Of a stretch of DNA of 64,000 nucleotides, positions 20,257 through 63,822 are shown one piece after another. The notes beneath the pieces were generated by a model that was not told the DNA's origin, ran no database searches, and worked only from the letters and a program-made list of their open reading frames with translations. The DNA comes from Phycisphaerae bacterium (GTDB taxonomy: Bacteria > Planctomycetota > Phycisphaerae > UBA1845 > Fen-1342): positions 186,001-250,000 of the forward strand of contig JAGNKU010000008.1 in NCBI GenBank assembly GCA_017999985.1, written 5' to 3'. Positions within the stretch are counted from its first letter, which is position 1. Each line of letters begins with the position of its first letter. Both the position numbers and the translations under genes were made by a program.

Positions 20257-20655
20257 TTGGAAGCACTTCCGCGCTTTGAGCAGCTCGGGCTCATAACCCG
20301 GAGGCGCGCGGCGACGGCGCTGCGCGTGGGCGCTCAGCGCGGCACGCGGACGTCTGAACTGGCGGTGGCCTGCTGCGGGGCGGCGCGGATCGTGAGTTTC
20401 GACACGACGGCCGCGGCGGTGGACGCGCTGGTGGCTGGGGCGGTGGACGGGGTCACGCTGGACGACACCGAGCTGGCGGGCCAGCGGGCGCGCTCGCCGG
20501 GGCGGCTGGCGGTGCTGCCCGGTCCGGTGGCGGATGAGGTGGCGGCCTACGTGTTGCCACTCGGCGCGGACCTGACGGACGCGCTGAACGCGGCCGCGTA
20601 CCAGTTGCAGGCGGAAGGGGAGACGGCGGCGCTGCTCGAGAAATGGAGCCGGTAG
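20257..20655 (+). pseudogene. C-terminal part of a family-3 solute-binding protein
   Basis: About 132 codons. RVGAQRGT, IVSFDTTAAAVDALVAG, DGVTLDD and the final ALNAAAYQLQAEGETAALLEKW match the second lobe of SBP_bac_3 amino-acid-binding proteins (canonical VGVQxGTT, ALxxGxVDAVxxD, LNxALxxLxxDGTxxxLxxKW). The first lobe and signal peptide are missing, and the frame begins only after a TAA at 20245. No ABC permease or ATPase lies nearby. I read it as a truncated remnant in a scar region; expression as a short protein from TTG 20257 cannot be excluded. Confidence 0.55.
20278..20304 (+). other. tRNA-Met-like anticodon-arm fragment
   Basis: GAGCAG is followed by a 5-bp stem closing the 7-base loop CTCATAA, exactly the anticodon loop of tRNA-Met(CAT), then GAGG. 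Compared with initiator tRNA-Met it looks like a D-arm fragment plus a complete anticodon arm with the D loop deleted. There is no acceptor stem or T arm, so it is not a functional tRNA. It also overlaps the solute-binding protein remnant, so chance similarity is possible. Confidence 0.3.
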
Positions 20656-46128: not shown

Positions 46129-46603
46129 CGCGCTTGGAGGGCATCCCGGCGAACGGCGGGCTCGGTATCGAAATCCCCGCGAGCGATCAGCGCTCCGAAC
46201 GCGTGAGTTAACCACGAGAGCCGCGGCGGGGTGAGAGTCTGAGAGTTGGTCCCTGATCCGGGCCGAAGACGGCCCGTTCGGCGCCGGCCCCGGCGTCGTA
46301 TCATCAAAACCGAGAGCGCGGGTCCGACCCACCAGAATCGCCGTAACTCTTTTCCAGCAACGGGATATAGCCGCCAGCGGCTGGTCGGCCCGCCGCTCGC
46401 CCCCTGTAAACAAACCGGTCCGCCTCGGCTTGAGACGGACCCTCGTATCTCCCCGAGGCCGCGTCGCCGGTCGTAGCGCCCATCGACGCCGACGGCGATG
46501 CGTGCAATTTCAACCTCCCCGCGACCGAGCCGCCGGTCAACGCGCCCATCGAAATCGTGGCCGTGCTTGCCCCCGTCCTGGTCTGGAAGGCCGCGTAGCC
46601 GTC
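46129..46603. other. 475-bp region between surface protein and mobile region
   Basis: No gene with a start is supported. One plus-strand frame near 46,470-46,598 ends in a protein-like stretch (APIDADGDACNFNLP, ending VLVWKAA) and may be the tail of a lost gene. This could be the left boundary zone of the integrated region, but I see no direct repeats to prove it. Confidence 0.4.
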
Positions 46604-48229: not shown

Positions 48230-49426
48230 TCAAACGCTGGGCGCGGCCACGGCGCAGGAGCCATCGCGTTCGGGTAGCGCCGCTGGACTGAGCCCGGCCA
48301 CAAACCGCCGCATCGCCTTCTGTGCGAACTCGTTCCGCAGGCGGTAGTAGTGCATGACCATCGCCATCTCGTCGTGCCCGACCCACTCCATCACGGTCGC
48401 CATCGGGATGCCGACTTCCGCGCAATGGCTGACAAAGAACCGGCGGAAGTTGTGCAGCGTCAGCTTGCTCTCCTCGATCCCCGTCGCGGTGGCGAGCGCC
48501 TTCAACCGGCCCAGGTAGGTCCGCTCGAAGTAGTCGGCGCGTGAACCGACCGGCGGCAGCGGGACCACGTAGCCGCCTTGACTTTCGGTCCCCAACTCGT
48601 CGAGCGCCTGCCAAACCAGCGGGCTGACCGGAATGACGCGGTCAGTCTTGTCCTTGGGTAAAAAGTAGACGCCGTCGGCCGTGATTTTTCGACGGACCTG
48701 CAAGATGTTCAGGTCGCGGTCGAGATCGCTCCACTCCAGCATGCCGAGTTCGGAGCAGCGCATGCCCGTGCTGGCGAGCATCACGAAAACGGAGCGGTCG
48801 CCCGGTTCGGCGGCGTCCCTGATCCGTCGATACTCGGCTTCGGTATAAGTCACCTTACGCGGCGATTCCTCGTCAAAAAGCAGGCGCACTCCGTAGCGTT
48901 GCTGCGATGCTGGGTTGACGTGGAGCCGGCCCGTCGCCTTGCACCAGTTGAAGAAGCTGCGCAGCGCAATGAGCTTGTTGTCCACCGTCACCCGGTCGTT
49001 GCCCTGGTCGAGCGACCACTGTCGGAAGTCGAGCACGGTCTCGGTCGTGATGCTGGGCAGCCGCGTGATGGATCGCTTGGTGGACAGGAACTTGCGGAAG
49101 CCGGCGACGATGCTGCGGTAGCTCGAATACGTGTTTGGCGTGTTCTGGACGCGCTGGTATTCGAGCCAGCCGTCGAGCGCCGACTCGACGCGATCATCGG
49201 CCCGAAGAGCCGGTGGCTCGGGTAGGCCGAACTCGGCCCGCGTCAGCTTGAGCGACATGCCCTCCGCCCAAAGAAGCGCACCCTTCTTGTCGCGGTGCCG
49301 GGTTGAGAGACTGCGCCACACGCCCCGTTCGTCGCGGAAGTGAAAATGCCAGATGCGTTTGAGCTTCCGCAGGATGCCCCTGCCCGCATGCACCTTGTCC
49401 TGTTCGTTCTTGCTCCACTTTGGCAT
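48230..49426 (-). CDS. Tyrosine recombinase / integrase
   Basis: 398 residues. ATG 49426 (MPKWSKNEQDK) has GGAG 8 bases upstream. N-terminal arm-binding-like region, SAM-like core-binding domain (ALDGWLEYQRVQNTPNTYSS) and catalytic domain with Arg in STGMRCSELGMLEW, a Lys in PKDKTDRVIPV, HNFRR (H-x-x-R), and GH...YY (WVGHDEMAMVMHYYR) holding the nucleophilic Tyr. All catalytic residues are present, so it should be active. It probably mobilised the surrounding region; no att site next to it could be identified. Confidence 0.92.
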   Translation of the reverse strand: MPKWSKNEQDKVHAGRGILRKLKRIWHFHFRDERGVWRSLSTRHRDKKGALLWAEGMSLKLTRAEFGLPEPPALRADDRVESALDGWLEYQRVQNTPNTYSSYRSIVAGFRKFLSTKRSITRLPSITTETVLDFRQWSLDQGNDRVTVDNKLIALRSFFNWCKATGRLHVNPASQQRYGVRLLFDEESPRKVTYTEAEYRRIRDAAEPGDRSVFVMLASTGMRCSELGMLEWSDLDRDLNILQVRRKITADGVYFLPKDKTDRVIPVSPLVWQALDELGTESQGGYVVPLPPVGSRADYFERTYLGRLKALATATGIEESKLTLHNFRRFFVSHCAEVGIPMATVMEWVGHDEMAMVMHYYRLRNEFAQKAMRRFVAGLSPAALPERDGSCAVAAPSV

Positions 49427-51471: not shown

Positions 51472-51848
51472 GCATCGTGTCGCTCAGGGGCATCCGGCTG
51501 CGATACTTGGTCCCGGATGTCCCCCGCAGGCATCCGCGTTGAACACGGGGCTCGTGTGTTGCTCTGGCGGGCCTTCTGCGAGGGGGATCGGGCCGCGGAC
51601 GCGGCCCCGGCCCTATCCCGTGCGATGCGCCTCGTCGAGCACCTGGCCGGCGCATGCTCCACCTGACATCAGTGCGCGTGAGGGGCCTTGAGCTACGCCG
51701 ATTCTGCCCTTGAAAAACCGGGCAAAGCGTGGCGCACTGCGATGATGAGAAAATCGCGGGAAACATCGGATTCGACTTGCGCGACGACCAAACCGCGCGA
51801 ACACTCTACGTATGTGATGTAGATGAGGCGACGACGGAGAACTGCCCG
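51472..51848. other. 377-bp intergenic region
   Basis: I see no gene or strong hairpin. The right end carries the GGAG site of the RuvB-like gene. Open frames extending that gene leftward to 51,729 have no ribosome site and unlike composition. Confidence 0.45.
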
Positions 51849-52802
51849 ATGCTGATGCCGCCGACGGTCGATCATTTCCAGGGACAACCTGAAGCTGTTG
51901 CTCTACTGCGGACCGCGCTGGAGGCCGCGTGGAACGACGGCACGCGCTTGCCGCACATGCTGCTCACCGGTCCACCGGGTGTCGGCAAAACGACGCTGGC
52001 CAACCTCGCTGCCCGTGAGATGGGTGTCGTCGTTCACGAGCGGCTGGGACAGACGCTTGAAGTGCCCGCGATGGTCAACGGCGTGCTGATGGAGGCGGAA
52101 GATAAGGATGTCGTCTTTGTGGATGAAGCGCACGAGCTTCCCCGGCAGTGCCAGACCGTGCTGTATCGGGCGATGGAGGATCGCTCGGTCTTCCTTCACA
52201 ACCAGCAGCGGAACTCGCTGAAGCTGCCGCTGGCGGACTTCACGCTCGTCCTGGCGACCACCGACGAATACTGCCTGCTGCAACCGCTGCGGGATCGCTG
52301 CAAGCTGACGATTCCATTCCGCTGGTATCAGCCCGATGACCTTGCCACCATCGTGCGGCAGCGGGCGCACATGATGAGCGTTGAGATCGCCGACGGTGTC
52401 CCCGACATGATCGCCAGCCGGGCCAAGGGCACGCCACGACTCGCCATCCGCCTGCTCGAAGCTTGCCACCGTTATGCCCGCAGCCGGAACGACCAGTCCG
52501 TCGGGGCGGAGCATTTCAACGCGACCGTGGCGCTGGAACAGATCGACGAGTTGGGGCTCGGCCGCGATGAACGGCGCTATCTTGCGCTGTTGGCGGAGAA
52601 ACATGGCGAGCCCGTGCGGCTGATCACGGCCGAATCCGCCCTCGGGCTGCACCGCCGGACGATACAAACGGTGCTGGAGCCGTTCCTGATCCGCACCGGC
52701 CTCTGCGAACGGCTGCCGACGGGACGAGCGATCACGCCCAAGGGGTTGCACCACTTGGCCCGCAGCGCCGAGGGTTATCAATCGGACGCACGAGAGGAAT
52801 GA
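51849..52802 (+). CDS. RuvB-like AAA+ ATPase
   Basis: 317 residues from ATG 51849 (MLMPPTVDHFQGQ), with GGAG upstream. Walker A GPPGVGKTTL, Walker B VVFVDEAHEL, sensor 1 LATTDEY, arginine-finger region QPLRDRCKL and sensor 2 GTPRLAIRLL are all present. The C-terminal winged helix ends GLCERLPTGRAITPKGLHHL, as in RuvB (GLIQRTPRGR). It is similar in length to RuvB, but no RuvA or RuvC is nearby. In a mobile element it may drive branch migration or replisome loading (inference). Two bases separate it from the downstream HTH gene. Confidence 0.88.
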   Translation: MLMPPTVDHFQGQPEAVALLRTALEAAWNDGTRLPHMLLTGPPGVGKTTLANLAAREMGVVVHERLGQTLEVPAMVNGVLMEAEDKDVVFVDEAHELPRQCQTVLYRAMEDRSVFLHNQQRNSLKLPLADFTLVLATTDEYCLLQPLRDRCKLTIPFRWYQPDDLATIVRQRAHMMSVEIADGVPDMIASRAKGTPRLAIRLLEACHRYARSRNDQSVGAEHFNATVALEQIDELGLGRDERRYLALLAEKHGEPVRLITAESALGLHRRTIQTVLEPFLIRTGLCERLPTGRAITPKGLHHLARSAEGYQSDAREE

Positions 52803-53412: not shown

Positions 53413-54150
53413 ATGATCCTGCCCAGCACCGTTGAGCAATACCTGACCAGCCGGGATTTCAGCCCACACACTCAAAAGGCGATCCGGGCGGACCTGCGGA
53501 AGTTCGCGGCGTGGTTCGTCGCGGCCAACAACGAGCCATTCAACGTCACGAGGATCACCGTGGCCGACCTGACCGCATTCCGCGACCACCTGGTCGGCGT
53601 CCGTCGTCAGGCCGTGGCGAGCGTCAACCGGGCACTGGTTTCGCTGCGGCGGTTTCTTGGGCATCTTGTGCAGAGCGGCGAGCTTCCGACAAACCCCGCG
53701 ATAGCGGTGAAAGAGCTTCGCCGCGTGCCTCTGGCACCGAAAGGTCTGACTGCGGCCCAGATCCGGCGGATCATGCGGGAGATTGAGATCCGGCAGGACG
53801 TGCGGGCGGGAGCGATCATCGCGCTGATGGCCCTTGGTGGTCTCCGCGTGTCCGACGTAGTCGGCCTGGACCTTCAGGATGTCGTGATCAACCCCCGTTC
53901 GGGCAGCGTCATCTGCCGGCACGGGAAAGGGAACAAGCAGCGGGTCGTTCCGCTCTGCCGCGAGGCCCGTCGGCTGCTGACTGCATACCTGGAGGTCCGG
54001 CCACCGACGGCCGCAACCCGCGTGTTCATTGGCGAGCGAGGCCCGCTGACCGACGACGGCGTGCGGGCAATCTGTGAGCGATACGCCGCGACTTGCGGCG
54101 TGGACTTCACGCCTCACCGCCTGCGGCACGCTGCGATGCGTGGTGCGTGA
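53413..54150 (+). pseudogene. Tyrosine recombinase truncated before its catalytic tyrosine
   Basis: 245 codons from ATG 53413. XerC/D-like: N-terminal SAM-like domain (FSPHTQKAIRADLRKFAAWF, ALVSLRRFLGHLV), catalytic Arg in ALGGLRVSDVVGLDL, Lys in RHGKGNKQRVVPL and the start of the H-x-x-R box in TPHRLRHAAM. The frame then stops, so the remaining H/W and the nucleophilic Tyr (normally ~35 residues later) are missing and it should be inactive. Immediately afterwards the sequence switches to the tail of a serine recombinase. Confidence 0.8.
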
Positions 54151-54704
54151 ACGTCGAGAAGCTGAAAAAGTTCATATTCGGTGAGATTCAGCGGCGGGTC
54201 TCGACGGAGGAGTTTCGGGCAGCGCTACGGGCATACCTGGTGGGCCGCCTTGGGCAGTTGCTCCGGAGCGAGGTGCTCGACACCCGCATGATCGACCGCG
54301 ACATCGCCCAGGCCGAGCAGAGGAAGCGGCGGCTCATCGACAGCATCGCCGAGGGCCTCCTTGACCGGCATGACCCCGTCGTGGCCCGGAAGCTCGCCGA
54401 GATCGACGACGAGCTACTCATCCTGGCCACCCGCCGGGAAGAAATCATCCGCGTCGTCGGCTGTGACCTGGACGCCGACGCCATCGCGGCCAGGTTGCTG
54501 GAGCGGGTCAACGACCTGGCGGGCTTCCTGGAGAGCCAGGACGTAGAGACCCAGCGGACGGCCCTGTTCGCCTTCTGCCGCCGGATCGTGGCGGACGCTC
54601 GGAAGAAGGAAATCGTGATCGAGACCGACCTGCTTGGGCTGGCGCAAAATGAAACCCCGCCGGGACTTCCAGCGGGGTTGTGCATAAATCGACTCCCCGA
54701 GTAG
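54147..54704 (+). pseudogene. C-terminal fragment of a large serine recombinase
   Basis: From GTG 54147 (VNVEKLKKFIFGEI) the frame gives ~185 residues with a coiled-coil segment (DIAQAEQRKRRLIDSIAEG, LAEIDDELLILATRREEI) and FCRRIVADARKKEIVIE near the end, as in the zinc-ribbon/coiled-coil tail of large serine recombinases. The resolvase catalytic domain, Recombinase domain and zinc ribbon are missing. The last ~20 codons run through a tRNA terminator and the tRNA 3' end, so the natural stop is also lost. Confidence 0.65.
54653..54679 (-). terminator. Rho-independent terminator, probably of a tRNA gene
   Basis: 8-bp stem AACCCCGC / GCGGGGTT with an 11-base loop. Read on the minus strand it is followed by TCATTTTG, and it lies 14 bp beyond the tRNA 3'-end sequence, the usual place for a tRNA terminator. 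Confidence 0.7.
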
Positions 54705-54712
54705 GACTCGAA
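54693..54712 (-). other. tRNA-derived attachment site (3' end of probable tRNA-Asn)
   Basis: On the minus strand these 20 bases read as T-loop TTCGAGT, T-stem CCTAC, acceptor strand TCGGGGA and discriminator G, an exact tRNA 3' end without encoded CCA. The 5' half of the T-stem is not matched, so identity stops at the T-loop as expected for an att core. G73 with a UCCCCGA-type acceptor fits tRNA-Asn. It lies 88 bp from the 3' end of an intact integrase gene. Confidence 0.7.
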
Positions 54713-54799
54713 GCTATCGCACGAAACCGCCTCAGCGCTCGCAGAATGCCGTTTTTGCCTTGTTTTATAGGTGTTTTTCATCATTGCACCTTTGCCAGC

Positions 54800-55972
54800 C
54801 TATGCCATCTGGCGCCCTTCCGTGCCGATCATTGGGTGACGTATTGCGTCCGGCGCCGCCTGTCTGTACTCCGGCAGTCGCCCGACGGCGCCCGCTGTGT
54901 CCAGTACACGCGGGTCAGTGTACGTGCCGGCCGTGAGCTTGTAGTCCGTGTGCCGCATCAATTGCATGATCGTGCGAGGCGATACGCCGGCCCGTTCCAG
55001 CTCGGAGCAGAACGTCACACGCAAGCTGTGAAAGCCGACTGTCAGCACGTCGCCAACGCGGCACTCGATTCCCGCCCGCTCGCAATCGGCCCAAAAGGTT
55101 TCACACCTGGGGATCGTGACGAACACAGGGGCGCCAGGATCAACGCCAGCCGGCCTAGATTCGCGCAGGCGCAACGCAAGCCCCGGGGGTAGGGGGATCG
55201 TGTCAGCCCGCCGGCTTTTCGTGGCTTCCGGCCGCAGCTCCAGGCGCGGACGGTCATCGTCTAGCCGCACGTCCTGCCATTGGAGCTTGCCGAGTTCGCC
55301 CAGGCGCAGCCCGGTCCCGAGCGCCACGCGATAGAGCAACTCACGCGGACCGGCCACGGCCAGTAGCCGGAGCACTTCGTCTGGAGCAAGCGCCCGCCGC
55401 TGGCGCCGCCGGCAGCCCCGGTCGTCAATCGTCGGCAGCGAGGCGAGGGGGTTTCGGTCCAGCCGGCCGGCGCCCACGGCCCACAGACAAAACGCAACGG
55501 CCGTCGCCCGGTCGTTTTTGATCGTCCTGGGCGACGCACCGGCAGCCCGGCGCGATTCAAGATACTGGATCATCGCCTCGCGGCCCACGTCCGGCAGCCG
55601 GCGCCAGCCACACGCGGAGCCAATCGCAGTCAACGCCGCATTCACGTGTGCAATGTAGGCCGGGTCACGTCCGCCCAACCGCAGCTCCGCAACGTAGTCC
55701 GCGACGTTTTCAGCGAACGTCCCGCGCCGCTTGTTCGTCAACTTGTCCACGAGCCCGAACGATTCCAACAGGCGCCGGGGGAGCGTCCGCTCCATGTCCG
55801 GCGTGATAGGATCACCGGCCGCCTTGCGGTCCACCGCCTGTTGCAGCATGGCGTGCCACCGCGCGGATACCGAGCGGTCCGCACAGAACCTGGCCCGCTT
55901 GTGCGCGTATGGCCCCAAGGCAATCGAGCCGTGCCAATCGTCGCGCCCCGCAACCTTGATTAGCTTCGCCAC
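54800..55972 (-). CDS. Prophage tyrosine integrase
   Basis: 390 residues. GTG 55972 (VAKLIKVAGRDD) has GGAGGG 7 bases upstream, and the upstream gene stops 4 bp before, so they are coupled. Core-binding domain (YVAELRLGGRDPAYIAHVNA) and catalytic domain with Arg in GTGLRLGELGKLQW, Lys in EATKSRRADTIPL, HSLR box, RH (LMRHTDYKLTAG) and Tyr in TYTDP. All catalytic residues are present. It should insert the element at the neighbouring tRNA 3' end. It is the last gene of the minus-strand run. Confidence 0.93.
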   Translation of the reverse strand: MAKLIKVAGRDDWHGSIALGPYAHKRARFCADRSVSARWHAMLQQAVDRKAAGDPITPDMERTLPRRLLESFGLVDKLTNKRRGTFAENVADYVAELRLGGRDPAYIAHVNAALTAIGSACGWRRLPDVGREAMIQYLESRRAAGASPRTIKNDRATAVAFCLWAVGAGRLDRNPLASLPTIDDRGCRRRQRRALAPDEVLRLLAVAGPRELLYRVALGTGLRLGELGKLQWQDVRLDDDRPRLELRPEATKSRRADTIPLPPGLALRLRESRPAGVDPGAPVFVTIPRCETFWADCERAGIECRVGDVLTVGFHSLRVTFCSELERAGVSPRTIMQLMRHTDYKLTAGTYTDPRVLDTAGAVGRLPEYRQAAPDAIRHPMIGTEGRQMA

Positions 55973-55976
55973 GACG

Positions 55977-56543
55977 TTACCCTCCAGCGTTCGCCTGCTT
56001 CGTCTTCGATTCGGCCAGCCACTCATCAAAGCTCGCAATCATGATCCGCTTCGCTTCCCCGAATGCGATTTTGCGTCGCACGAGCAATGCCTCCGCGAGT
56101 TTTCGAACGGCGTAGTGGTTGTGTTGGATCATGTTCCGCGCGCGGTATTTCAGATAGGCTAAGTAGGCGTCGAGTTCCATCGTGTCGCGTGACGCGCGCC
56201 CCTGCATGTAGGTCAGATAGCTTAGGCACTCGCATGCGTTGCCATAGTCGGCATCGGCGCCGCATTCGTCAAAGTCCTCCCCGATGCACAATCCGGCGCC
56301 GGCCGCACCAGCCAGAGAACACAGCGCCAGCGATTCCACATACGCCCGGTCGCGCGCTTTCGGCTTAAGTTCGCTCGCCAGCCGTTCGCGTCGCTTGGGA
56401 TCATGGGTTTTCTTATGCAAAACGTGCCCGAGCGAGTCGCCCTCGGGCTCAATCGTGACATGCCGACACGCTAGCCCGAGCAGCCACGCCACGACAGCGT
56501 GCCCGGCCTCGTGATACGCCGTTCGCTTTTCGTCCTGTTCCAC
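55977..56543 (-). CDS. FtsH/M41-like zinc peptidase domain protein without AAA+ domain
   Basis: 188 residues. GTG 56543 has a perfect AGGAGG 7 bases upstream; a frame to 56,567 is less supported. TAYHEAGHAVVAWLLG is the HEAGH zinc-binding motif of FtsH-family (M41) peptidases, followed by VTIEPEGDSLGHVLH, as in FtsH (RVSIVPRG.ALG). A later Asp in GEDFDECGADADY could be the third ligand. There is no ATPase or membrane segment. Sits directly before the integrase. Role unknown; it could process a phage or host protein. Confidence 0.8.
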   Translation of the reverse strand: MEQDEKRTAYHEAGHAVVAWLLGLACRHVTIEPEGDSLGHVLHKKTHDPKRRERLASELKPKARDRAYVESLALCSLAGAAGAGLCIGEDFDECGADADYGNACECLSYLTYMQGRASRDTMELDAYLAYLKYRARNMIQHNHYAVRKLAEALLVRRKIAFGEAKRIMIASFDEWLAESKTKQANAGG

Positions 56544-56566
56544 GCCGCACCTCCTAGTTTTCGCCA

Positions 56567-57115
56567 CTATGATGCATTTCGCATTTCACGAGTGCGACAA
56601 TTGCGGCCCGTTACTCGATCAGCAGCAACGTGGTACAGGCCACAGAGCGGACATCGCCAAACCCCCAGGCGCACGCGATTCCAAAAGCCTTCAAAATACC
56701 GCCGGTTTAACTCACAACATGCTGTCACGTCCGGCAGGCACACCCGATGCCAGCTCAAGTGCGTAGGCGCCGGCCAGCCGCGACGCTGCCACGCCGTCCG
56801 ATTGTCACGCGACAGCGCGACCGCCAGCGATTGACGCCCGACGCCCCGCGCCAGCGACCGCGACAACCTGGGGTAGCCGTGGTCATCGAGCCAGACCGCC
56901 ACCGCCGGCCGATCAGCCGGCGCCAGCTTCGCGAGTTCACGCGGAGCCAGGCGATACGGCAGCTCGGCGCAGCACTCGACACACCACGCCCCGGGGTAGT
57001 GGCCCGAGCCGTCCCGGTACTGCTCGCCAACCGGGACCGGACCGGAGTGCCAGGGGCAGGAACACGCGAACACAGCCAACGCCGGGGGGCCGGTCGGAAA
57101 GTTCAAGTCGTCCAT
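56567..57115 (-). CDS. Cys-rich protein with zinc-ribbon-like motif
   Basis: 182 residues from ATG 57115 (MDDLNFPTGPP), with GAGGG 7 bases upstream. Cys pairs are spread along the chain (CSCPWH, WCVECC, ACCEL, WRCPLCGLYHVAADRVTGRNC), the last resembling a zinc ribbon. The rest is Arg- and Pro-rich. No family recognised; perhaps a nucleic-acid-binding accessory factor of the element. Same strand and close spacing as the peptidase and initiator genes. Confidence 0.6.
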   Translation of the reverse strand: MDDLNFPTGPPALAVFACSCPWHSGPVPVGEQYRDGSGHYPGAWCVECCAELPYRLAPRELAKLAPADRPAVAVWLDDHGYPRLSRSLARGVGRQSLAVALSRDNRTAWQRRGWPAPTHLSWHRVCLPDVTACCELNRRYFEGFWNRVRLGVWRCPLCGLYHVAADRVTGRNCRTREMRNAS

Positions 57116-57346: not shown

Positions 57347-57994
57347 TCAAAACGGCAGCCCGTCGCTTTCGTCTGGCGCCCCTGGCTCGCCGGCTACGCT
57401 CGGGCTACGCCGGCGAGCTTCGTCGTCGTCATAGAACAAGTCGCGCGGGTCGGGCACGTCGTCGGGGTATTCCTCGTCATCAGGGCGATGTGATTCTCGA
57501 GAGTCTTTCCCTGTAATGGGGGACACGGCCGCCGCTCTTGCGGCGTCGGCCGTGTTCCCCTTCTGTAGTTCTGTAAGGGGGGCACTTTTTGTCCCCAATA
57601 ATGGGTACTTTTTGTCCCCCATCGGGGTACTTTTTGTCCCCCATCGGGGTACTTTTTGTCCCCTATCATTGGGGTACTTTTTGTCCCCTATATGGGGGCA
57701 CTTTTTGTCCCCTATTGGCAACGCCAGCACCAGCACCGCCGGCCCGGTCGCGCGGCTGCCCGGCGTGACCACCGTCACGAGCCCGAGCCGCCGCAACTTC
57801 GTCAACGCCCGGCGCACCGTCCGCACGTGACACCCGAGCGCTCGCGTGATGCGCGACTGCGAGACTGATACCCGACCGTCGCGGTCCGCGTGTCGGAACA
57901 GCAGCAACCAAACGGCCACGGCAGCCACGCCAAGCCCGTGCGCATGATGATCCGCAAAGTCGTTTAGCATGGCCCACCGGCTACCCCGTTCCAT
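57347..57994 (-). CDS. Winged-helix replication-initiator-like protein with iterons in its coding sequence
   Basis: 215 residues from ATG 57994, with AGAGG upstream. The N-terminal ~85 residues form a winged helix (VWLLLFRHADRDGRVSVSQS, HVRTVRRALTKLRRLGLV), as in phage and plasmid initiators or replisome organisers. Residues ~95-140 are encoded by six DNA repeats and read as GDKKYP, GQKVP or GTKSTP depending on frame. The C-terminal third is acidic and disordered (DDEEYPDDVPDPRDLFYDDD) and ends in DESDGLPF, like the SSB acidic tip. Overlaps the upstream HTH gene by 14 bp. Role inferred from architecture, not from homology search. Confidence 0.7.
   Translation of the reverse strand: MERGSRWAMLNDFADHHAHGLGVAAVAVWLLLFRHADRDGRVSVSQSRITRALGCHVRTVRRALTKLRRLGLVTVVTPGSRATGPAVLVLALPIGDKKCPHIGDKKYPNDRGQKVPRWGTKSTPMGDKKYPLLGTKSAPLTELQKGNTADAARAAAVSPITGKDSRESHRPDDEEYPDDVPDPRDLFYDDDEARRRSPSVAGEPGAPDESDGLPF
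57577..57715. repeat. Six iterons, candidate replication origin
   Basis: Six copies of (T/C)ACTTTTTGTCCCC at 57,583, 57,606, 57,628, 57,650, 57,675 and 57,699, spaced 22-25 bp (about two helical turns), each preceded by a run of G that makes GGG...CCCC flanks. They lie inside the initiator-like gene and are translated in all three frames, which indicates conservation of the DNA itself. Confidence 0.75.
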
Positions 57995-58187
57995 CCGTCA
58001 CCTCTACGCGGTCCGGTCGCTTGCAGCCGCACTCGATAAACCGCGCCAAGTCCGAAGCACGCCACCGACACGAGCCGCCAAGCTTCACGGCCGGGGGAAT
58101 GTCACCGCTGGCCGCCAGCCGCCACACGCTACGGACGGCCACGCCGAGCAGCTCGGCTACCTCGCGCACCCTCAAAAGCTTGTCCAT
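57981..58187 (-). CDS. AlpA/excisionase-type HTH protein
   Basis: 68 residues from ATG 58187 (MDKLLRVREVAELLG). The motif LRVREVAELLGVAVRSVWRL, AASGDIPPAVKLGG and CRWRASDLARFIE is the classic MerR-fold excisionase/AlpA pattern (HTH plus wing). Overlaps both neighbours (58 bp upstream, 14 bp downstream), so it is translationally coupled to the initiator-like gene. Probable directionality factor or early regulator. Confidence 0.8.
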   Translation of the reverse strand: MDKLLRVREVAELLGVAVRSVWRLAASGDIPPAVKLGGSCRWRASDLARFIECGCKRPDRVEVTDGTG

Positions 58188-58374
58188 CGTCCAGGACCAC
58201 CACGCCACCGCCCGGGCACCGAGCCCGCGCCGCATCGCTGATAACCCGCGAGTCGAAGTAGACCCGCCGGCCACGCCGGATCACGTCCAGCGAACCAATC
58301 CGCGCCCAACGCCGCACCGCGTCGGCGCTCACCCCCAGCACCTGGCCCGCCTCGCGAGCCGTCAAAAGTCGCAC
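58129..58374 (-). CDS. HTH (MerR/excisionase-fold) DNA-binding protein
   Basis: 81 residues from GTG 58374, with AAGGGG upstream. LLTAREAGQVLGVSADAVRRWARIGSLD and RVYFDSRVI give an HTH plus wing close to the downstream protein but with a different tail (GGGVVVLDDGQAFEGA). Two overlapping excisionase-fold genes in a row suggest a lysogeny/excision control pair. First gene of the coupled operon leading to the initiator. Confidence 0.7.
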   Translation of the reverse strand: MRLLTAREAGQVLGVSADAVRRWARIGSLDVIRRGRRVYFDSRVISDAARARCPGGGVVVLDDGQAFEGARGSRAARRGRP

Positions 58375-59066: not shown

Positions 59067-61643
59067 TCACGCGTCCGCCGTTAACACCTGTTCCAGATTG
59101 CCGGCTGCCCGCTCGCTGATCTGCACAAGCTTCTCGACGCCGCGTGCCGTCCGTTCGGCTGTACTGGCACCCGCCAGGCCGCCGACGCTGGACGCCAGGA
59201 ACGTACCTTGCACGGCTATCTTCTGCTCCATCGCTGCCGCAAGGTTTGCTGCGGTTGGCAACGCCATAGCCGGCATCGCCGGCAGCTCGCCTAATGCACC
59301 GGGAGCTGCCCAGCCCTCGGCCGATTCACGCAGCAACTTCGCCTGTGCGAGCGCATACCGCAGCCGGCCTTGCGCTTCCTTCAATGCCGCTTGGGCCGCG
59401 TTGATGCGCCCGGCCGATGCGGTCACCAATGCAGACTCAAACTCCGCTTGGGCATCGGCTACAGCTTTCATCGCCCGGTCGCGCTGGCCCTTGGCAACGT
59501 CGGCCGCGTCCCGGCGGGCTTGCTCGATCTGTGCCCGCTTGGCGTCCGCCTCGTCGGCAATCCGCGCTTGCCGCTGGTCCGCCCGCTCGCTCGCCGACGC
59601 CCTCGCGGCCTCAACGTCATACCACGGATCGACCGTGCCGCGCAGCTCGATCCATTCCTCCTCGACACGGGCTACCAGTTTTCCCGTGGTGCCGAGGAAC
59701 CACTCGGTGAAGCCGACCCACAGTCGCTTCAAAAAGGCTATAACCTCGTGGATTGCGCGGGCAATTCCGTAGCATGTGTAAATGAACACGCGCTCCATCC
59801 GCGTCGCGAAATCAGACATCGCGGTATACGCGCCCGTGCGCAGGTTTTCGAGCACCTCTAGCAAGCCCGCCGCCCCGGTTTGCCACGTGGCTTTGAGCGC
59901 TGCCCACAAGACAACCGCCGCCGCTTGCACGTCGCCGGTTGCCATTGCGTCGGCAATGCCGCCCATCACGCGGCCCGCGACCCGCTGGAGCTCACCAAAA
60001 CGCTGCATCAACCATTGCAACGCCGTCGCCGCTGTGCCAGTCTGGTAGACCACAACCGCGCCAAGCGTGCCCAAGGCCGCGACCACCAGGCCAATCGGGC
60101 TAGCCAGCGCAGCGAGAGCCGCACCGCCGGCTAACGTGGCGGCCTTCAAGCCGCCGAGCACGGCCGCCAAGCCAGAGATCGCAACGCCAGCCGTTTTGAA
60201 TGCTACACCGGCCGCAACCAGCGCAGCACTGGCCCCAATCACGCCGGCCGCGATGCCGCCAATCGTCACGACCAGGGACCGATTCGCATCGACCCAAGAA
60301 GCCACACCTCGCGCAACCACCGTCAGCCGCGTGATGATCTCCGTCAGCGCTGGTGCGAGCGCACCGCCGATGGTGAATACCGCCGACTGGAGCACCCGCC
60401 GCAAGCGACTGAAAGCGTCCGAAAGCCTGGCCGCCGCCGCGGCATCCTGTGTGCTAATCGTGATGCCGAGCGCTCGCGCTTCGGCCCGCATTGCCGCGAG
60501 CCCCCCCGTAGCCTCACGCACAAAAGGGAGCAGCGACCGAGCACCTTTGCCGAACACAGCCAGGGCCGCCGCCGCACGTTGACCAGGGTCGGGCAACTTG
60601 GCTAGTGCTTCGGACACCACGGCAAACTGTGTGTCCAGCTTCAGGCCCGCGAGGTCGCCGGCAGACAATCCCAAGCGTCCCAACGCATCGGCCGCCGTCT
60701 TGCTGCCGTCCGCTGCTGCCCGGATCGTCTGTGAAAGCTTGACGATCGAATCATCGACGTCATCGCGCAGCGCACCACCAGCCGCACTAGCCGCTTGACG
60801 CAAGCCAGCCAGGCCATCGGCCGCCGTTACCAGCGTTGGGAGCAACGCCCGGCCATTGTCGCCGAAGATCGAAAGCGCCAGGGCCGCACGCCTGGCCGGA
60901 TTCTGGACACGTGACAACGCATCGGCCACGGTTTCCGCTTTGCGACCAGCTCCCAACCCCGCGAGGGCCTCAGCACTAACGCCGAGCCCGGCGCCGGCCA
61001 ACGCCCTATCATTCACCACCAGGCCAAGCCGAGCCACCGCCGCAGCCGCCGTCCCGGCTGCATTCTCGACGCCAGCGAGCATCGGCAATAGGTTTGTGCC
61101 AGAGCGACCGAAGATCTGCAACGCAGCCGCCGTTCGCGTGGCCGGATCGGACACACGCGCGAGCGCTGCACTCACCGCGTCGAATTGCTGATCGGCGTTG
61201 AGCCGCATGAGCGCATCAACGCTCAAGCCAAGCCGCTGGAATGCTTCGCGTGCAACCTTGGAACCCTGTCCAGCTTCCACGAGCGAACGCTGCATCAACC
61301 GTGCAGCCTTTTCCACGTCGCCGATAGATGTTCCGCTCAGCTCGGCCGCATAAGACAGCTCCGAGAGTGACTCGACCGACATCCCGGTACGCTTGCTCAT
61401 TTTGTCCAGCGTGTCGCCCTGGCTCGCAAACGAGCGCACCGCTAGCCCGAGCGCACCGGCCGCACCCACGCCGAAAGCCGCCATGCGCACGCCGACGCGC
61501 TGAAATGAATCACCAATACCGCGCAGCGTCGCCGAGAATGCCAGAAGCCGCGCACGCGCACGCGCCAAGCCGGCCGCTATCTTGTCATTAACGCCGAGCT
61601 CGACGTAGGCGCGACCAGCCCGAATACCACCAGCATCAGCCAT
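59067..61643 (-). CDS. Phage tail tape measure protein
   Basis: 858 residues from ATG 61643. Start ADAGGIRAGRAYVELGVND, then a coiled/helical region with FASQGDTLDKMSKRTGMSVE (the TP901-type tape measure opening), three ~60-residue repeats (131-192, 213-276, 317-378) ending in IFGxxGxxLLP, a long hydrophobic middle (about 470-560) and a Lys/Arg/Ala-rich coiled coil. Tape measure proteins set tail length and are ejected with the DNA. The length predicts a short siphovirus-type tail. It lies 59 bp after the capsid gene with no tail-tube or chaperone genes between. Confidence 0.88.
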   Translation of the reverse strand: MADAGGIRAGRAYVELGVNDKIAAGLARARARLLAFSATLRGIGDSFQRVGVRMAAFGVGAAGALGLAVRSFASQGDTLDKMSKRTGMSVESLSELSYAAELSGTSIGDVEKAARLMQRSLVEAGQGSKVAREAFQRLGLSVDALMRLNADQQFDAVSAALARVSDPATRTAAALQIFGRSGTNLLPMLAGVENAAGTAAAAVARLGLVVNDRALAGAGLGVSAEALAGLGAGRKAETVADALSRVQNPARRAALALSIFGDNGRALLPTLVTAADGLAGLRQAASAAGGALRDDVDDSIVKLSQTIRAAADGSKTAADALGRLGLSAGDLAGLKLDTQFAVVSEALAKLPDPGQRAAAALAVFGKGARSLLPFVREATGGLAAMRAEARALGITISTQDAAAAARLSDAFSRLRRVLQSAVFTIGGALAPALTEIITRLTVVARGVASWVDANRSLVVTIGGIAAGVIGASAALVAAGVAFKTAGVAISGLAAVLGGLKAATLAGGAALAALASPIGLVVAALGTLGAVVVYQTGTAATALQWLMQRFGELQRVAGRVMGGIADAMATGDVQAAAVVLWAALKATWQTGAAGLLEVLENLRTGAYTAMSDFATRMERVFIYTCYGIARAIHEVIAFLKRLWVGFTEWFLGTTGKLVARVEEEWIELRGTVDPWYDVEAARASASERADQRQARIADEADAKRAQIEQARRDAADVAKGQRDRAMKAVADAQAEFESALVTASAGRINAAQAALKEAQGRLRYALAQAKLLRESAEGWAAPGALGELPAMPAMALPTAANLAAAMEQKIAVQGTFLASSVGGLAGASTAERTARGVEKLVQISERAAGNLEQVLTADA

Positions 61644-61702
61644 AGTCTATCCTCGCGAGGGGGGCGCGGTTTGCGCCGCGCCCCCCGAGTCTAGTGGTAT
61701 TG

Positions 61703-63601
61703 CTACTCAGCTTCGCCAGTACACTTCGTCGCCGCCAGGGGTTCAACCAGCGAGCAACCAACGTCGATATAGCCTCGCCATTGCAGGCCGAGCGTATTAA
61801 AGTCCTGCTCGGCTTGCTCGATAGTCGGCGAGTCTTTGCCGTCGAGGAAGCTCACAACCACCGCGCCGTCGGCCGGGGCCGCGAACAGATACCACGCCAC
61901 GGCAGACGTGCCGGTAAACAACGTGCTATTGCTCAGCCGGGGTTCAACCGCGAGCGTCAGTGCGTTAAAATGCACGTTGCCCTCGGGTTGCCGGTCCGTG
62001 CCGTCCGCGACGTAGCGCGCGACGGTTGTAGATGCGAGCAGTTCACGCGCGGAGTTTTCCAGGGCCGGCGGAACCAGCAGCACGCGCGCCCGCAAGTCGA
62101 GGTTGTGTCCGGCCGCGTCCGTGCGAGCCGCCATATCGGCCAGGGCAACCGTTAACGCGTGCGAAGAAAGCGCCGTGTCCGTGCCGGCCAGCAAGTTACT
62201 GTTGCCGACGCTGAAGAAGTCCGCGTCCGCGCTGTCCTTGTTCGCCAGCAGGCGCGTGTAAATCAGGTCGCTGACTGTGCGCGCGCCAGCCCGGCCGATG
62301 TGCGCGGCCGTCTGCTGGAAAATGCCGAGATCGTCGTTGATGATATCACGCCGATCAATGCTGAGCATCATCGCCCGCGTGCTAGCCGTGACCGTCTGCT
62401 GCGAATCCTCAAGCGTGCCGTGGTGAATCTCGCCGCCAGGTGGCAATTCGGAGAAGTCCGAGCCACACAAGATGCGAATCAGCTTTTTCGACTTGAAATC
62501 CGAGCAACTCACCACGTTTGCGAATGCGCGCCAACTCGACGGGGTTTCGCGATAGCTTTCAAGTGCAAACTTGCCGGCCGCATCGGCCAGCGCGTTGCTG
62601 AGATCGATGCTAGACAGCGCTGCGCGAATCAATCCCACCCGGTCACGCGGGGGCACCTGGCCAGACGCACGGACTGCCGTAGCGCAAATGTCCAGCAGCG
62701 AATGGCACCGCAAGTCCGCCGCTTGCTGCGCGACCCGCGCGCCGAGCTGCTTCTCGGCAATGTCCGGCCGCCCCGCCCGAAGCAGCAACGCTGCCGTGAG
62801 CAGCTCGTGCGGCTTCGCATATTCCTGCGGCGTGGTCGCGAAGCAAGGCTTGAGCACCGGCCGCTTAGCCCGCAGAATTTCCAGCTCCACCTTGTTCAAG
62901 TCCCAACCCTCGGCAATGGCCTTCGCCTCGATGGCGGGGAAAGCCGTGCCGCACAGCCGCGCGATGCCCGCCAACCGCTGTGATTCTTTCACGTCCACCG
63001 TTTCGGTGTCAGTCGCCACCGATTCATCATCGGTCGCGGTAATGATCCTGTCTTCGTCCAATCCAGTGTTTCCTGTGTTTGCTGCGGCGCGCCTCGCCGC
63101 CAGGGATACTCTTGTGTCAGCGTCCGCCGCCAGCGCGACGATGCTTACCTCTTTCAGCTCGCCCTTCGATACGAGCGTCAATCCGTTGGCCCCAGCTTCG
63201 ATGCTGCGGCCGTTCACGCGGACAGTTTGCCCCGGCTTGATGTAACTCGACACGTTCGGAGCGACTCCGACCGAAGCGCCGAGCCCCACACCAGCCTTGA
63301 GCAGGTCCGCGACGTGCACACCGGCCGACGTTCCAACCAACGTGCCGGTGATTGTGAGCTGATTATCCTTCACCTGGGGACGGCCCGTACCGACCACGGA
63401 GCCCAGCGCGTTTTCGTGGTCCGCGAGCAGTGTCAACTGCTCCGGCATCTTGAGCCCGCGCAGGTCGATTGCCACGTCGCCCCAGCCGTCAACCTTCATC
63501 GAGCCGCCGGTGTATGCCAGAATGCGCACACGCGGGGGGCCTTTGCCGGCCTTCGCCCGCACGAGCGTATCCGCCGCTGGAAATGTTAAAAGCTTGTTCA
63601 C
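61703..63601 (-). CDS. Prohead protease / major capsid protein fusion
   Basis: 632 residues from GTG 63601, which overlaps the upstream stop (GTGA) and has GAGGT upstream. An ATG at 63,718 in the same frame lies inside the preceding gene. The N-terminal ~180 residues have the layout of a prohead protease (WGDVAIDLRGLKMPEQLTLL, ADHENALGSVVG, GVGLGASVG, LKEVSIVALAAD). A linker rich in Asp/Thr leads to an HK97/Mu-gpT-like capsid domain: TLEDSQQTVTASTRAMMLS, INDDLGIFQQTAAHIGRAGA, LLVPPALENSARELL, VEPRLSNST and DVGCSLVEP. Such fusions are known in some phages. The protease probably frees itself after shell assembly. Confidence 0.88.
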   Translation of the reverse strand: MNKLLTFPAADTLVRAKAGKGPPRVRILAYTGGSMKVDGWGDVAIDLRGLKMPEQLTLLADHENALGSVVGTGRPQVKDNQLTITGTLVGTSAGVHVADLLKAGVGLGASVGVAPNVSSYIKPGQTVRVNGRSIEAGANGLTLVSKGELKEVSIVALAADADTRVSLAARRAAANTGNTGLDEDRIITATDDESVATDTETVDVKESQRLAGIARLCGTAFPAIEAKAIAEGWDLNKVELEILRAKRPVLKPCFATTPQEYAKPHELLTAALLLRAGRPDIAEKQLGARVAQQAADLRCHSLLDICATAVRASGQVPPRDRVGLIRAALSSIDLSNALADAAGKFALESYRETPSSWRAFANVVSCSDFKSKKLIRILCGSDFSELPPGGEIHHGTLEDSQQTVTASTRAMMLSIDRRDIINDDLGIFQQTAAHIGRAGARTVSDLIYTRLLANKDSADADFFSVGNSNLLAGTDTALSSHALTVALADMAARTDAAGHNLDLRARVLLVPPALENSARELLASTTVARYVADGTDRQPEGNVHFNALTLAVEPRLSNSTLFTGTSAVAWYLFAAPADGAVVVSFLDGKDSPTIEQAEQDFNTLGLQWRGYIDVGCSLVEPLAATKCTGEAE

Positions 63602-63822
63602 GTGAGCACCTCGCATTTTGGCCAGGTCGCGCGCTGCGGCGCTGGCTTTGTCTTTCTCTTGTGTCGCCGACCCCTGTACAGCTCGCGAGCCTCGTCGCAA
63701 TTGCGTGTGCCACGACATGGCGGATACAGACTACAGCCCCAGAATTGCCGGCCGCAGCTTTCGCGCAGCCGCATCGCCGCGCCGCAGAGCGGACACGGAA
63801 CGAAATACTCATCACGCGCCAT
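63598..63822 (-). CDS. Topoisomerase-type C4 zinc-finger protein
   Basis: 74 residues from ATG 63822 with GAGGGG upstream. VPCPLCGAAMRLRES and GRQFWGCSLYPPCRGTRN form the four-Cys zinc finger found at the C-terminus of bacterial topoisomerase I, here free-standing with a basic tail (GRRHKRKTKP). Its start overlaps the previous stop (TGATG) and its stop overlaps the capsid start (GTGA), so it is translated in a coupled chain. Probably binds single-stranded or packaged DNA. Confidence 0.8.
   Translation of the reverse strand: MARDEYFVPCPLCGAAMRLRESCGRQFWGCSLYPPCRGTRNCDEARELYRGRRHKRKTKPAPQRATWPKCEVLT

Follow-up and report, generated by a model that had tools for sequence, protein, structure and literature searches.

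A probable tRNA-Asn(GTT) 3'-end scar between a truncated serine-integrase element and a tyrosine-integrase prophage region in a Phycisphaerae genome

In the passages of PMC3146451 that deal with the tandem ssrA islands of Dehalococcoides, the gene of the serine recombinase DsiB is located beside the att site and the RNA-gene 3'-end is repeated as 20-bp copies. The crossover is placed near the T-loop, several islands stand in tandem, and remnants without an integrase are described. According to the relevant part of the Islander paper (PMC4383910), no integrases other than tyrosine integrases were known to target tDNAs. In the corresponding sections on Mycobacterium prophages (PMC8092301, PMC10654092) the reported tRNA and tmRNA sites are those of tyrosine integrases, and accretion of integrative elements is among the subjects reviewed in PMC5704250. 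A literature search for serine integrases targeting tRNA genes yielded one partial precedent, the Dehalococcoides tmRNA, which is no proof of absence of others.

Here we studied a 64-kb window, that is, bases 186001–250000 of the 292,697-bp contig C8 from a genome of 5.23 Mb in 31 contigs (G000). The sequence CTCCCCGAGTAGGACTCGAA on the plus strand at 54693–54712 is the complement of nt 53–72, from the T-loop to the discriminator, of tRNA-Asn(GTT). The 20-base minus-strand tRNA match described in the original prediction is therefore real and represents the last 20 bases of this tRNA. It is the single match to this sequence in the window with up to three mismatches allowed, and none of 100 shuffles gave one. 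When 127 kb of C8 were compared with the full set of tRNAs found in the genome, the reversed-sequence control gave no match longer than 15 bases vs 20 for the scar. No complete tRNA was found in the 64-kb window, and the Rfam scan of the window produced no family at the gathering score. The outer edge of the scar, 54712–54719 (AGCTATCG), is the complement of tRNA-Asn nt 5–12, by chance or as a remnant of a tRNA copy with an internal deletion. We consider it probable that the 20 bp are an attachment-site scar of the one tRNA-Asn(GTT) gene of this genome, two elements having inserted in succession at its 3'-end.

An intact tRNA-Asn(gtt) gene is located on the minus strand of contig C12 (positions 1–72), starting at the first base of the contig, and is the sole tRNA-Asn among the 49 tRNA loci examined. 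Its 3'-end (C12:2–20, minus strand) is the only other copy of the core in the genome within two mismatches. As in tRNA-integrated prophages and genomic islands, the fragment is thus identical to the 3'-end of an intact tRNA in that genome. Upstream of the gene, C12 aligns with the tRNA-Asn loci of relatives for three of the 12 flanks tried (63–76% identity, up to 4.7 kb). The tRNA had been named as probably tRNA-Asn on the minus strand, and this complete minus-strand gene with the same 20 bases bears the assignment out. Together with the aligning flanks of the relatives, it makes the expectation of a minus-strand tRNA-Asn elsewhere correct. The rightward extension suggested as a check did not reveal this gene on C8 itself; it was found at the start of C12. 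Past the window C8 has another 42.7 kb of phage and cargo genes and ends within a phage-type methyltransferase gene, and comparison of the contig ends found no overlap between the right end of C8 and the start of C12. C12 starts at the tRNA 3'-end, the scar and the intact gene lying on separate contigs. As C8 breaks off 52 kb farther right while still in phage genes, we infer the adjacency of C8 to C12.

The scar overlaps the C-terminal remnant of a large serine integrase (54147–54704, plus strand; phrog_95 positions 418–564), whose stop codon (54702–54704) is inside the scar. The remnant contains only the C-terminal part of phrog_95; no Pfam families were found in it, the Resolvase, Recombinase and Zn-ribbon domains not being present. 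A terminator-like hairpin of the serine-integrase element (54653–54679, minus strand; folding z-score −2.8) is located inside the 3' coding end of the integrase, on the same strand as the tRNA fragment and 13 nt beyond the discriminator. Search of 120 genomes with the remnant yielded 10 matches in 8 genomes. Seven of these reached the C-terminus (two in G016 and one each in the window, G026, G107, G002 and G109), and three partial matches short of it (G002:185349, G076, G054) were left out of the counts. The window remnant has 88% amino acid identity to a G016 copy and 85% to the G026 copy. The hairpin is conserved across the seven copies, with compensated changes in 2 of 11 pairs. Six of these seven copies are followed by the identical 20-mer core, into which their frames read LPE-stop, the stop being inside the tRNA sequence; the G109 copy has CTCCCCAAGT in its place. 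Relatives of the remnant were not found in viral contigs.

G026 encodes a whole serine integrase of 562 aa with Resolvase, Recombinase and Zn-ribbon domains, converging on an adjoining intact tRNA-Asn, and in G107, from another family, a serine remnant likewise converges on an intact tRNA-Asn. The element-free G016 locus (contig C95) and the element-bearing G026 locus (contig C113) have the tRNA upstream flank in common and diverge right after the tRNA 3'-end. In G016 a serine unit is accompanied by a damaged tRNA-Asn copy (pseudo-tRNA, contig C99), with a separate intact gene beside. In G002 the core and the serine unit stand alone and the tRNA-Asn adjoins a relative of the integrase at 54800, as expected for insertion between the tRNA and a serine element. 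Judging by gene position, this serine integrase is apparently a putative recombinase of tRNA-Asn.

The orientation of the fragment, its spacing and the terminator resemble a tRNA 3'-end, as would be the case if a single prophage were inserted at tRNA-Asn and the fragment and terminator were the displaced 3'-end and flank of the host gene, with ordinary chromosome to the left. However, G016, G026, G107 and G002 all contain the core, the terminator and the serine-integrase end as one recurring unit, and the native flanks of other relatives differ. Given the recurring unit, this explanation is already largely refuted, and we regard it as improbable; the model of a native terminator was dropped for the same reason. 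The terminator reported behind the fragment is present, but it recurs with the serine-integrase unit, and its reading as the tRNA's own flank is not supported. The original prediction had also stated that location of the fragment inside a larger conserved gene would speak against it, and this is partly the case, the serine-integrase frame ending at 54704 within the fragment. Since the core, the terminator and the integrase 3'-end recur together, they are part of an older element on the left. Hence an older truncated serine-integrase element (approximately 46.46–54.69 kb) lies on one side of the scar and a younger prophage region, which runs from 54.71 to beyond 106.7 kb, on the other.

In the left element, a RuvB-like ATPase (51729–52802, plus strand; Pfam RuvB_N and RuvB_C; 35% amino acid match in the G026 element) is followed by a truncated tyrosine recombinase (53413–54150, plus strand; PF00589, profile positions 3–136 of 172). 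The window and G026 have the gene order RuvB-like ATPase, tyrosine recombinase, serine integrase, tRNA-Asn in common. The window copy of the tyrosine recombinase is cut short and runs into the serine remnant, as if approximately 14 kb were lost; the tyrosine recombinases of the window and G026 gave no pairwise match. A further complete tyrosine integrase is encoded at 48230–49426 (minus strand; PF00589, PF02899).

In tblastx of the relatives' downstream flanks against C8 the results were noisy, and of the left-hand matches the one at 46.4 kb was taken up. Here CTCGGGGAG (46449–46457, minus strand), the last 9 bases of tRNA-Asn, forms a putative distal scar, and 46165–46448 (minus strand), with a terminator-like hairpin at 46417–46441, is the putative original downstream flank of tRNA-Asn. 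Directly after tRNA-Asn in G004, 293 bases are 71% identical to window positions 46457–46165, the match beginning inside the tRNA (CTCGGGGAG). In G010, TTCGGGGAG precedes the unit, which shares the strand of tRNA-Asn and lies 58 kb downstream of that gene. The unit adjoins tRNA-Asn in only one relative. Because it also occurs away from tRNA-Asn in G004, G006, G007 and G010, we assign moderate confidence only to the reading of 46165–46457 as the original flank, suggested by this sequence similarity. In general, it is a non-coding unit of approximately 290 bases, dispersed in these four genomes and often starting with TCGGGGAG. When G026 and G016 were searched, the displaced native flank was not found in G026, where the sole match follows a second, diverged tRNA-Asn copy.

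To the right of the scar, a phage arm (54713–54799) is followed by a tyrosine integrase of 412 aa (54800–56038, minus strand; PF00589, phrog_1). As had been noted, this open reading frame is intact, and 88 bp separate its final base from the fragment. The start of the integrase is overlapped by an M41-like protease gene (55977–56567, minus strand; PF01434). Farther on, the minus strand encodes a replication-initiation-like protein (57347–57994) and an excisionase-like protein (57981–58235), then a tape measure protein (59067–61643) and a head protease/capsid fusion (61703–63718). Prophage genes together with the integrase run rightward from the fragment to the end of C8, with a late-gene set at 86–104 kb (window scale). 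The fragment had been predicted to mark the left end of a prophage-like element. This stands as regards the phage genes running to the right, but the left side is probably the right end of an older element, its reading as plain chromosome not being supported.

The same region carries defence cargo at 66079–80210 in the window scale (L032:2079–16210), namely a CBASS-type cyclase and phospholipase, and a type I restriction-modification system with a helicase and a DUF2290 gene. Tape-measure and capsid-protease genes occur in the region as two sets that have diverged from each other (59067–63718 and window scale 88013–98076), both sets matching the same G010 prophage genes. A tRNA-Met(cat) gene is located inside the late-gene region (C8:286130–286202, window scale 100130–100202). 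Scars of other tRNAs, which could mark a second prophage border, were searched for from the fragment to the end of C8, and none exceeded the control except this tRNA-Met gene and its matches. The right-hand parts at 54.8–66 and 80–107 kb may be one element or two.

In G010, a prophage related to that of the window is located between tRNA-Asn and the putative native flank, and 16 genes of the 86.4–106.7 kb segment have homologues beside tRNA-Asn there. The orientation of the G010 phage relative to the tRNA is opposite to that modelled for the window. A different serine integrase of 519 aa (G010:C32:158632–160191) adjoins tRNA-Asn in this prophage.

We then compared the polarity of the 54800 integrase with that of its relatives. 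In 18 of 21 relatives an intact tRNA or tmRNA gene is located 119–269 bp past the end of the match; the three without any RNA gene nearby were left out of the polarity count. In each of the 18, the RNA gene nearest to the integrase lies on the other strand and faces it. The analysed genome itself contains seven integrase matches, and the three others listed with an adjoining tRNA (on C6, C28 and C29), compared by eye, all have the usual polarity. The window fragment, on the same strand as the 54800 integrase, departs from this family rule. Neither relatives of the integrase nor the exact junction were found in viral contigs; the named relatives (n = 3) are from Phycisphaerae or Phycisphaerales metagenome bins. 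The junction TAGC-TTCGAGT-CCTA looks like a symmetric core site, and an inverted overlap sequence would explain the reversed polarity. Alternatives are an in-place inversion or an unrelated junction.

Since the polarity is opposite to that in 18 of 18 relatives, this junction may not be the work of the 54800 integrase. The scar could then be a relic of the serine element only, for example an internally deleted tRNA-Asn copy comparable to the G016 pseudo-tRNA, the prophage adjoining it by another event and not being inserted into tRNA-Asn. The G016 serine unit, whose tRNA-Asn copy is damaged while an intact gene exists separately, as well as the match of AGCTATCG to tRNA-Asn nt 5–12, agree with such an origin. 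However, the spacing between the core and the end of the integrase match falls, by arithmetic, within the family range of 119–269 bp if measured at the same residues, the junction seems to have symmetric core arms, and the prophage at the G010 tRNA-Asn has 16 genes in common with that of C8. We consider a mere relic unlikely, though the least unlikely of the alternatives to two insertions. The unexpected polarity, and the start of C12 exactly at the tRNA 3'-end, as at a graph branch, would also suit a chimeric assembly at the core. In that case the serine element would in truth be joined to the C12 tRNA-Asn and the prophage would belong elsewhere. But the 127-base overlaps at several contig ends suggest long k-mers, and a 20-base repeat should not mislead such an assembly, and a chimera is very improbable.

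In several assemblies, contigs start or end at, or a few bases from, tRNA 3'-ends or att cores (C12, position 1, and C11, position 7, in the analysed genome; G008:C17, position 1; G006:C69 and G006:C12, at their right ends), as though reads diverged at these points, e.g. due to excision or strain differences. The tRNA-Met(cat) gene at C11:7–79 is likewise at a contig start. A 20-base match to its nt 28–47 (anticodon stem-loop) at 20285–20304 of the window is possibly the att site of another element.

Two successive insertions, the explanation that we prefer, would have proceeded as follows. A large-serine-integrase element would have inserted at the 3'-end of tRNA-Asn, as it is arranged in the relatives, and the integrase 3'-end, the element-borne terminator and the integrase stop codon would have come to overlap the regenerated tRNA 3'-end. 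The element would then have lost most of its serine integrase, probably by deletion. In the second step, the T-arm of this tRNA gene would have been the insertion point of a prophage region with a tyrosine integrase, at least 52 kb in length. The former tRNA 3'-end, now the scar, would have stayed with the serine element, and the complete gene would have been regenerated at the far end of the prophage, presently the start of C12. The fragment would thus be the left end of the prophage region and the right end of the older element at once. We infer the order of insertions, the regeneration of the tRNA by the phage and the deletion in the serine integrase. Points against this history are the absent link between C8 and C12, the integrase polarity, the dispersed flank unit, the absence of a displaced flank in G026 and the G109 copy without the core.

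A more specific proposal is tentative, the balance being slightly against it. The serine-integrase lineage, present in two families of this order, may be dedicated to tRNA-Asn and may have written its own stop codon and a tRNA terminator into the att site, sharing 3'-ends with the tRNA; a tyrosine-integrase phage would then have used the same core with the overlap inverted, integrating opposite to all examined relatives. A tRNA scar as such is nothing unusual; more unusual are the apparent dedication of a serine integrase to a tRNA gene and the flip of polarity. The scar illustrates how a tRNA gene that is present once, and presumably essential, can gather unrelated elements yet remain intact. 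If the serine integrase truly targets tRNA-Asn, it would be a counterexample to the statement in the cited part of PMC4383910 and possibly a new integration tool.

Compared with the Dehalococcoides ssrA islands as described in those passages of PMC3146451, the locus has a similar arrangement, which does not imply homology to DsiB: a serine recombinase beside the att site, a 20-bp repeat of the RNA-gene 3'-end, a crossover apparently near the T-loop, tandem elements and integrase-less remnants. The target there is ssrA (tmRNA), whereas here it is tRNA-Asn and the younger insertion is a tyrosine-integrase prophage. As in the tDNA islands outlined in PMC4383910, an intact tRNA and a 3' fragment in the same orientation would enclose an integrase and prophage genes; unlike them, the locus combines serine and tyrosine types in tandem, and the tRNA and the fragment are on two contigs. 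Finally, in contrast to the accretion cases covered in the pertinent part of PMC5704250, the resident element here is of the serine type and the incomer is a tyrosine-integrase phage in reversed polarity.
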